A DNA stretch of 64,000 bases from Lachnospiraceae bacterium YSB2008 (GTDB lineage: Bacteria > Bacillota > Clostridia > Lachnospirales > Lachnospiraceae). Position numbers and translations under genes: made by a program. This document shows positions 38,438-41,312 of the stretch, piece after piece. Positions within the stretch are counted from its first letter, which is position 1. Every line of letters starts with the position of its first letter. The DNA lies in contig JHWR01000007.1 in the NCBI GenBank assembly GCA_000687655.1, forward strand, positions 1-64,000, in the 5' to 3' direction. The notes beneath the pieces were generated by a model, which worked only from the letters and a program-made list of their open reading frames with translations, made no database searches and had not been told where the DNA came from.

Positions 38438-38690
38438 TTACTACAGTGAGAGAAGTAGAGGCACAGAGGGCTGTGGTGATGGCATTTAACACGCTGCCGA
38501 GCAAGCGCGAGGAACTGGTGGTACAGCGGGAGCGGATGCTTGCTTTTTTGCGTTTGTGCCTGCCCTGGCTTCATGACCACACGCGCCAAATCTGCTCTTG
38601 CACTCATATCTACGCCTGTGCTAAACTACCGTCAGGCGAGGACATGCTTCTCGCCTATTTGTTGCTCGCGAGAATTCATCGAAATTTACG
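38438..38690 (+). other. G+C-rich degenerate stretch, possible gene remnant
   Basis: About 250 bases of distinctly higher G+C than the genes on the left. One frame is open to a TGA at 38692 and reads protein-like (VEAQRAVVMAFNTLPSKREE, then LAFLRLCLPWLHDHTRQI). It has no proper start or ribosome-binding site and no family I recognise. It was probably imported together with the following surface-protein module. Confidence 0.3.
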
Positions 38691-38718
38691 TTGAAATCAG
38701 CCCAGGTTTTGCTATAAT
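38691..38718 (+). promoter_or_regulatory. Promoter of the repeat-containing leader
   Basis: TTGAAA (38691-38696) and TATAAT (38713-38718) with a 16-base spacer are near consensus. Transcription would start about 38725, giving a ~355-base leader before the surface-protein ATG at 39081. No other promoter is evident between the leader terminator and the gene. Confidence 0.75.
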
Positions 38719-38825
38719 ATAAGCGTATCTTTATGCTCACGTGCAGGGGTTAAGAATCCGCGCTGGCAGGCCGATACATGAGATGAGAACTTCTTATATT
38801 TTTGACGGAAAGGGGCTTGACAGCC

Positions 38826-38903
38826 ATGCGGAATAGAAATACGCTCCTTAGAGCAGAGCAGAGCAGAGCAGAGCAGAGCAGAGCAGAGCAGAGCAGAGGC
38901 TAA
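38826..38903 (+). CDS. Leader peptide ORF built on GAGCA pentamers
   Basis: A 25-codon ORF starts with ATG at 38826, 10 bases after AAAGGGG. It encodes MRNRNTLL, three RAEQS units and RG. Because the repeat is 5 bases, all three frames of the tract encode the same cyclic peptide without stops; only the exit frame changes with repeat number. With the present nine copies the exit frame meets TAA at 38901-38903. It is most likely a regulatory leader, not a functional protein. Translation is inferred from the start signals. Confidence 0.5.
   Translation: MRNRNTLLRAEQSRAEQSRAEQSRG
38851..38895 (+). repeat. Nine perfect tandem GAGCA pentamers
   Basis: 45 bases of uninterrupted 5-bp repeats, followed by a near-copy GAGGC. 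Perfect pentamer tracts of this length are slippage hot spots; the CTCTT repeats of neisserial opa genes are a known analogue for phase variation. It lies in the transcribed leader, well downstream of the promoter. Confidence 0.95.
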
Positions 38904-38964
38904 CTGCGCCCTTTTAGCGTCCTGCGGGGCGTTTGAAACTGAATACTTCATTCGTGATGGATAA

Positions 38965-39014
38965 CCGTCGGACTTGACGGGGGTACTATACCCTGTCAGG
39001 TTCGGCGGTTTTTT
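38965..39014 (+). terminator. Strong leader terminator (attenuator) before the surface-protein gene
   Basis: An uninterrupted 18-bp stem (38965-38982 with 38991-39008, several G-U pairs), an 8-base loop and six T residues. It lies between the only visible promoter and the gene at 39081, so transcription must read through it. The first base of the stem directly follows a TAA (38962-38964) that is in frame with the leader ORF when the repeat count is 7, 10 or 13. Confidence 0.85.
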
Positions 39015-39080
39015 CGTTGTACAACATGGGGCCGCGGCGGCCATAACAGCCGTGAATAAGAAATAAAGGAGAAATAGCTT

Positions 39081-41312
39081 ATGAGAATTAAGATGAAAAG
39101 ATTTTTAGGCATCCTGCTCAGCCTTGCGATGGTCGTCGGGCTGTTCCCCGGCATGAGTTTGACGGCGTATGCGAAAACCTATGATTCGCTGACTGTCGGA
39201 ATGGTACTTCATCTGGGCGATACCATCAATACGAGTACCGATTATAAGCTTAGCACTAACTGGCTCACTGCAAATACATGGACATTGGTAAGAGGAAATA
39301 TCACTAGTGAGCCTCCTTTTGGTAATGAATCAGATTCTGGTGCTTACTACTTATTAAAGAAAAGCGATGGTTCTGTCTATGTTGATTTTAAAATGGGTCA
39401 AGGGGGTTTAGAAGGCTGTTGGCCAGTAACTGACACTTCCGACGGCATCTGTGTGGAATCACTCAACGGTGAAAACGTAACATTTGCTGTGCATGAAGCA
39501 TCGGCCCACACCCACAGCTTTACCTACTCCGCCGGTGGCGCGACCATCACGGCGACCTGCGGCGCAGCGGATTGCCCGCTACCGGTGGTTAACAACAAGC
39601 CTACGGCCACGCTGACCATCGCAGCACCGTTACATACGACTTATGGTGACGGAAACGAGGCGGCGGCTGTTATCACCGATACGAACAGCATCAAAGGCGA
39701 CGCGACGATCCAGTATCAGACCAAGAGCGGCGGCACCTATGGAACCGCGACGACAACCGCGCCCACCGGCGCGGGCGACCACAAGGCGAGCATCACGGTG
39801 GGCGGCGTTACCGCGTATGTGGAGTACACCATCGCCCAGGCTGATTCGACCGCAAACGCGCCTACAGGCCTGACCGCGACCTATGGCCAGACCCTTGCCG
39901 ATGTGTCGCTGACCAATCCGAGCGGCAACACGGCGGGCACTTGGGCATGGGCGGATGCGGGAACCACCAGCGTCGGCGCGGTGGGCAGCCATATCTTCAA
40001 GGTGAACTTTACGCCGACGGATACCACGAATTATAAATCGGTCAGCAATGTGGATGTGACCGTGACCGTCGGCAAAGCGGCGAACCCCGCGACGGTTACA
40101 AACACCGCATCCGTTACAAAGGGCGGCAAGACCGTCGATCTGGCAAGCAATGTCACAAAGAATGGTGCGACGGGGGATGTCAGTTACGCGATCAGCGGCG
40201 GAGAGAACGGCTGCTCGCTGAACGGCAGCGTGCTGACCTCCGGCAATACTACGGGCACTGTGACCGTGAACGTTACCGTCGCGGAGGACGACAATTATAA
40301 CGCCCTTGCCGCGACGCCCATCACCGTGACGATCAGCGACAAGGCGACGCAGACCATCACCGCTGAAAACGTAACCGCGAATTACGGCGACACGGATAAG
40401 AAAGTAACTGCTACGACCAATGGAAACGGCACGATCACTTATACCGTAAAGGATGGCAGCGCGGATTACATCGATGTGGACGCTTCTACCGGCGCATTGA
40501 CGATCAAGAAGGTCGGCACGGCTACCGTAATTGTAACGGCAACGGAGACAGATACCTACGCGGCGGCAACCAAGGAAGTAACCGTGACTATCAATAAGGC
40601 GAATGCTGTTGCCGCAACCGTCACCGCGAACAACCGTACCTACGACGGCACGGCGAAGCCGCTGGTGACCATTACCGGCACACCGACCGGCGGCACGATG
40701 CAGTACGCTCTCGGCACCGCAACCGAAGCAACCGAAGAATATACCACATCCATCCCTACAGCCACCGAAGCCGGAACCTACTATGTTTGGTATATGGTTG
40801 CCGGCGACAGTAACCATCTTGACAGTGAACCTGAATGTGTAAAGGCTTATATCAATAAGAAGATCATTACATATTCAAATGTATCGGGCGATGGCAGTGA
40901 ATGGAAGAAGGGCTCAGACGGCTCTCTTGAGTTCGTATTCAAGAGAAGTGAAGATGATGATGAAACCTTCGTACATTTCACAGGTGTTAAGGTTGACGAG
41001 ACAGCGGTTGCAGCTAAGGATTATGATGCAAAACCGGGAAGCGTTATCATAACACTGAAGCCGGAATTCATTAAGACACTTGCAGTTGGTAAGCATACAC
41101 TTACTGCAATGTTTGATGATGGTAATGATGTTACCGTAACATTCTGGATTCTGGCAGATGAGAAGAAGGGCAGCAAGACAGATGGACAGAAAGAGGAAAT
41201 TGCAAAGCGGACGAGTGATGATACATCGATATTACTTCCGCTGCTCATAATGATCGATTCATTTGCGGCTGCGATTTATATCATGCTTCTTAAGAAAAAA
41301 ACAGGAAAGTAA
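39081..41312 (+). CDS. Mosaic secreted surface protein with Ig-like/MBG-type repeats
   Basis: 743 residues, with AAAGGAG 9 bases before the ATG. A signal peptide (RIKMKRFLGILLSLAMVVGL...SLTAYA) is followed by an AT-rich coded segment (~35-135). Then come G+C-rich repeats (about 140-575) of MBG/YDG-like modules (TATYGQTLADVSL, TANYGDTDKKV, TANNRTYDGTAKPLVTI), and an AT-rich C-terminal part. The end has a TM helix and a KKKTGK tail, with RTSDDTSI in the place of a sorting motif. It is probably a wall- or membrane-attached adhesin. The composition switches mid-gene near 39.5 and 40.8 kb, which indicates recombination. Confidence 0.8.
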   Translation: MRIKMKRFLGILLSLAMVVGLFPGMSLTAYAKTYDSLTVGMVLHLGDTINTSTDYKLSTNWLTANTWTLVRGNITSEPPFGNESDSGAYYLLKKSDGSVYVDFKMGQGGLEGCWPVTDTSDGICVESLNGENVTFAVHEASAHTHSFTYSAGGATITATCGAADCPLPVVNNKPTATLTIAAPLHTTYGDGNEAAAVITDTNSIKGDATIQYQTKSGGTYGTATTTAPTGAGDHKASITVGGVTAYVEYTIAQADSTANAPTGLTATYGQTLADVSLTNPSGNTAGTWAWADAGTTSVGAVGSHIFKVNFTPTDTTNYKSVSNVDVTVTVGKAANPATVTNTASVTKGGKTVDLASNVTKNGATGDVSYAISGGENGCSLNGSVLTSGNTTGTVTVNVTVAEDDNYNALAATPITVTISDKATQTITAENVTANYGDTDKKVTATTNGNGTITYTVKDGSADYIDVDASTGALTIKKVGTATVIVTATETDTYAAATKEVTVTINKANAVAATVTANNRTYDGTAKPLVTITGTPTGGTMQYALGTATEATEEYTTSIPTATEAGTYYVWYMVAGDSNHLDSEPECVKAYINKKIITYSNVSGDGSEWKKGSDGSLEFVFKRSEDDDETFVHFTGVKVDETAVAAKDYDAKPGSVIITLKPEFIKTLAVGKHTLTAMFDDGNDVTVTFWILADEKKGSKTDGQKEEIAKRTSDDTSILLPLLIMIDSFAAAIYIMLLKKKTGK

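Follow-up and report, generated by a model that had tools for sequence, protein, structure and literature searches.

The region upstream of a secreted surface-protein gene in the rumen bacterium Lachnospiraceae bacterium YSB2008 is very probably a phase-variable leader-peptide attenuator of the type described for the pil1 locus of Streptococcus gallolyticus. The anatomy of the switch is present in the analysed window (64,000 nt; contig JHWR01000007.1, positions 1-64,000, forward strand) and is conserved among related leaders: on the + strand a predicted promoter, a ribosome binding site (RBS), a leader ORF, the (GAGCA)9 tract, an intrinsic terminator and the surface-protein gene follow one another in that order (Table 1). 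The mechanism itself is already known from pil1, and what is new is comparative, namely a family of such switches in Lachnospiraceae. A proven, apparently isolated switch of two S. gallolyticus pilus loci is thereby extended to about 35 rumen or gut loci, a family that makes the model testable by comparison, and the model predicts ON and OFF surface proteins from sequence alone, per genome or metagenome.

Table 1. Features of the leader region and surface-protein gene (positions in the window)
Feature	Position	Strand	Evidence or comment
Relic of phage-type large serine integrase	38446..38541	+	32 aa, 29 identical to the L215 integrase beside the same cassette
Upstream promoter P1, TTGAAA-16-TATAAT, extended TG	38691..38718	+	11/12 matches
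Leader RBS, AAAGGGG	38809..38815	+	sequence; most relatives have an RBS at the equal position before the ATG
Second promoter-like element, TTGACA-17-TACGCT	38817..38845	+	overlaps leader start codon; missed in the original prediction
Leader ORF at 9 repeats	38826..38903	+	ATG 38826, 25 codons, TAA 38901-38903; predicted OFF
Nine tandem GAGCA repeats	38851..38895	+	sequence and TRF
TAG	38915..38917	+	exit stop at 5, 8, 11 and 14 repeats (recomputed frames); predicted OFF
TAA	38962..38964	+	exit stop at 7, 10 and 13 repeats; overlaps first stem bases; predicted ON
Intrinsic terminator	38963..39014	+	20-bp stem (38963-39010), 8-nt loop, six T (39009-39014)
RBS of surface-protein gene, AAAGGAG	39065..39071	+	sequence
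Secreted or surface protein, 743 aa	39081..41312	+	signal peptide, repeat domains, weak CBM_X2-like stretch, C-terminal hydrophobic anchor

In the proposed mechanism, transcription would begin at P1 and ribosomes would start on the leader at ATG 38826 and read on across the GAGCA tract, where slipped-strand mispairing would alter the copy number and hence the exit frame. When the leader ends at TAA 38901 or TAG 38915 (OFF), the terminator would fold and most transcripts would end; when it reaches TAA 38962 (ON), the ribosome would cover the 5' arm, block the terminator and allow the surface-protein gene to be transcribed. We infer leader translation, slippage and the effect on expression mostly by analogy with S. 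gallolyticus.

In that organism, both pil1 and pil3 have a leader peptide gene that contains GCAGA repeats and precedes a stem-loop terminator (Danne et al. 2014; PMC3894217). At 22 repeats translation of the pil1 leader ends 49 bp ahead of the terminator according to the results (39 bp according to the figure legend), and expression is low; at 21 repeats the stop lies 4 bp before the hairpin, with 23 it lies inside, and in both cases expression is high (PMC3894217). Treatment with chloramphenicol, removal of the leader start and insertion of stop codons cut or fixed pil1 expression, mostly as the model predicts (the added-stop mutants were slightly above the low expression level), a mutant without one stem strand was locked on, and switching occurs at a rate of about 5 in 1000 per cell per generation (PMC3894217). 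The idea behind the original prediction, that slippage determines the stopping point of the ribosome relative to an attenuator, is supported by comparison of related loci and by a proven precedent in which the pentamer is the same; its claim that the combination was undescribed fails, since Danne et al. had demonstrated the mechanism experimentally for pil1, which by the same token lends the mechanism strong support (PMC3894217).

The likeness to pil1 is close. GCAGA is GAGCA rotated and lies in a short leader ORF with its own RBS, an intrinsic terminator precedes the gene for a surface structure, and the stop geometry is nearly the same, with one frame ending about 40-50 nt upstream (low) and another 4 nt before or inside the hairpin (high). 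The hosts (Streptococcus versus Lachnospiraceae) and products (sortase pili versus surface proteins) differ, however, and the Lachnospiraceae have many related copies, varied repeat units that include tetramers, a conserved TTGACA-17-nAnnnT overlap and a link to prophage integrases. Two of three frames are ON in pil1, whereas two of three are predicted OFF in the window, where the third frame is closed by the TAG at 38915. This TAG is missing from most relatives, in which that frame enters the hairpin and usually ends 13 nt past the stem-side stop, within the 5' arm, so that two of three frames are predicted ON in most relatives, as in pil1. Attenuators of the trp type likewise let the position of a ribosome on a leader ORF decide terminator formation, but the variable in the window is the number of DNA repeats and not charged tRNA. 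As in the neisserial opa-type simple-repeat genes, pentamer slippage would shift a reading frame ahead of a surface protein; unlike in those genes, the repeats lie in a separate leader outside the surface-protein ORF, and the surface protein itself would therefore never be frameshifted.

Tandem Repeats Finder (TRF) reports the GAGCA tract as 38850-38898, with 9.8 copies and a 100% match, and by pattern search it is the sole tract with at least three GAGCA units in the 2.69-Mb genome. The unit length is not divisible by three, and the tract lies within a leader ORF that has an RBS and an ATG. From the end of the tract to the surface-gene ATG at 39081 there are 185 nt. The signal peptide and C-terminal anchor of the 743-aa protein are predicted from its sequence, and the genes downstream of the related leaders are similar. 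A search of Rfam for a curated cis-regulatory RNA family gave chance-level matches only, and the reading as a riboswitch or as another element known to Rfam was rejected.

For every copy number of GAGCA from 5 to 14, the exit stop was recomputed. TAA 38901, the exit stop at 6, 9 and 12 copies (predicted OFF), lies 59 nt before the stem, TAG 38915 lies 45 nt before it, and TAA 38962 overlaps it by 2 nt; the window thus has the arrangement taken here as pil1-type, with one exit frame ending at least 28 nt before the hairpin and another at or in it. The sequenced genome, with 9 copies, is predicted to be in the OFF state. The original prediction had its frame arithmetic (9; 8 or 11; 7, 10 or 13 copies) exactly right, and its promoter TTGAAA-16-TATAAT, leader ORF from 38826 and nine GAGCA units at 38851-38895 were all found. 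The prediction also had TAA 38962-38964 just touching the first base of an 18-bp stem with T6 at 38965-39014; the terminator, its six T and a stop at the stem edge stand, but the stem comprises 20 bp and begins at 38963, which is why the stop overlaps its first bases. The surface-protein gene does appear to lack a promoter of its own, as had been proposed: no sigma-70-like promoter was found in 39015-39081, the interval where one had been named as grounds for rejecting the prediction.

The terminator folds with -37.1 kcal/mol (z = -7.8). In a covariation alignment 95% of cells in the hairpin are paired (shuffled sequences, 84%; slid controls, no more than 51%), and 19 of the 20 pairs show compensatory changes, although the sequences had been aligned by fitting them to the model and some of the matches lie on the reverse strand; an unfitted alignment of 14 sequences has 4 pairs with a compensatory change. 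The consensus fold contains no competing antiterminator, and no run of regulatory codons is seen in the leader. Terminator-like sequences without a nearby leader occur in L100 and L107, in L100 before a PspA-like gene.

Relatives of the leader were sought with BLAST and then with a covariance model (R1). Within the same genus, 22 of 61 genomes gave a match at E <= 0.01, a count that takes in weak matches and matches to the terminator alone. A sample of 397 genomes from across the family yielded 12 with a match at E <= 1e-5, and these belong to 11 of 334 genera. About 35 distinct loci remain once near-duplicates (L105, L117, L124, L143) are removed; L135 and L137 are doubtful members. Most leaders lie upstream of genes with closely similar signal peptides, of the type MKMKKRLLGILLSLALVLGLMPGMSLTAYA. 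The position of the repeats is constant across the family and the units differ (GAGCA, CGCAT, CCGTA, CAGCA, ACAGA, CAGGT and the tetramer AAGC). Several arrays terminate at contig edges, as would happen if variable tracts defeat the assembler; assemblies from short reads are often broken at such tracts, and these switches are therefore probably undercounted. A pentamer tract is not in itself a marker of such switches: the (GAGCA)24 of L155, in the distant genome G584 of the same phylum, is intergenic and has neither leader ORF nor terminator, and among 50 pentamer-bearing viral contigs only 2 have the leader. Comparison of the leader core with annotated plasmids and phages gave no homologues.

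Comparison of these loci, the counts from which are not independent because the loci share ancestry, mostly supports the translation model. Of 32 loci, 29 have a stop codon at the repeat exit (22 TAA, 4 TGA, 3 TAG), and 7 of the 10 departures from TAA are still stops (P = 0.002 if a 2/9 rule is assumed, with no correction for shared ancestry); the interchange of TAA, TGA and TAG indicates that stop function is kept rather than sequence. The stem-side stop likewise varies among TAA, TAG and TGA. Counted from the core start, the spacing between the two stops is a multiple of three, and so keeps frame, in 28 of the 35 loci, which show eight distinct lengths; in the other 7, with five other lengths, the rule is broken, which counts against the model. 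An in-frame substitute replaces a lost ATG or 5' half in L092, L096, L113 and L134: L092 has lost the usual ATG, but another one lies upstream in frame and comes with a GGAG site, and L113 and L134 have different 5' halves with the frame open down to the stem stop. The loci divide about evenly among the predicted exits: the leader would stop where the repeats end in some 10, at the stem in 9 and within the hairpin or past it in 11. Between genomes, L091 and L111 have cores identical at 118 of 120 positions with 12.4 and 7.4 copies, predicted OFF and ON, respectively. Differences at the three codon positions of the leader number 248, 261 and 212, and its amino acids are not conserved beyond the nucleotide level; selection on them finds no support, as synonymous changes are no commoner in the leader frame than in shifted frames. 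This is expected if only the stopping point of the ribosome matters; the model allows the absence of amino-acid conservation without requiring it, and we list it among the points against the model.

A challenge to translational control comes from the second promoter-like element. In 28 of 34 loci, against an expectation of 4.7 from shuffled sequences, TTGACA-N16/17/18-nAnnnT lies across the start of the leader. The element is kept even where the sequence between the hexamers has diverged, and in most loci the repeats start 0-6 nt past its second hexamer. Judged from its sequence, the element may be a second promoter with an RNA beginning at the repeat tract; it could start RNA inside the tract and skip the leader ATG, which counts against a leader attenuator. 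Were TTGACA-17-TACGCT the true promoter, copy number would act on the RNA 5' end or on initiation and not through translation. We consider this unlikely: L111 (spacing 13), L113 and L153 are without the element yet retain the leader ORF, so that the translation model does not need it, and conservation of the frame and of the stop codons would be left without explanation. P1, a predicted promoter identified by sequence match, is conserved too: 12 of 33 related leaders have an exact TGnTATAAT upstream, where 0.7 would be expected, and P1 is near-identical in two viral contigs (L215 and L198, described below).

Frame-dependent expression would result as well if translation of the leader shielded the RNA from Rho or decay, the frame acting through polarity and the hairpin being an ordinary terminator. 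A strong covarying hairpin with a T tract, placed exactly at the stop codon, and the locked high expression of the S. gallolyticus mutant lacking one stem strand (PMC3894217) make this most improbable. Even harder to credit is a decayed or neutral remnant, in which the terminator would merely end an upstream transcript and the pentamer tract be an incidental microsatellite. Such decay would agree with the loss of the tract in L122 and L148 and with the copies before other genes in L111 and L140, but not with the conservation of the repeat site across seven or more different units, with that of stop codons and frame, or with the recurrent link to signal-peptide genes.

The attenuator cassette also occurs in prophage contigs. 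Two members of the family, on the IMG/VR contigs L215 and L198, have it complete, including P1, adjoining large serine integrases, and L215 has in addition an endolysin and a terminase small subunit. The integrase relic of the window lies on the same side of the cassette as the L215 integrase. Together with the L215 and L198 cassettes, it suggests that the window cassette probably arrived with, or adjoins the integration site of, such a prophage element. In the prophage leaders most similar to that of the window the repeat is present in 12 and 14 copies, versus 9 in the window. A broader reading is possible, though we hold it to be rather doubtful: a mobile, partly prophage-borne cassette would have spread through Lachnospiraceae and placed many surface proteins under independent repeat-count switches, the tract being continually rebuilt from different units at a fixed site and the overlapping promoter giving a second start at the tract.

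Cores also stand before genes unlike those for signal-peptide surface proteins (L111, L140, L124, L125, L137), which suggests recombination or cassette transfer. An ORF resembling a reverse-transcriptase fragment lies downstream of the leader in L012/L143. Immediately upstream of the TATAAT box, L091, L092, L093, L096, L099, L134 and L153 have a direct repeat like TGTTGCGCTTTTGTTGC, which looks like a candidate regulator-binding site.
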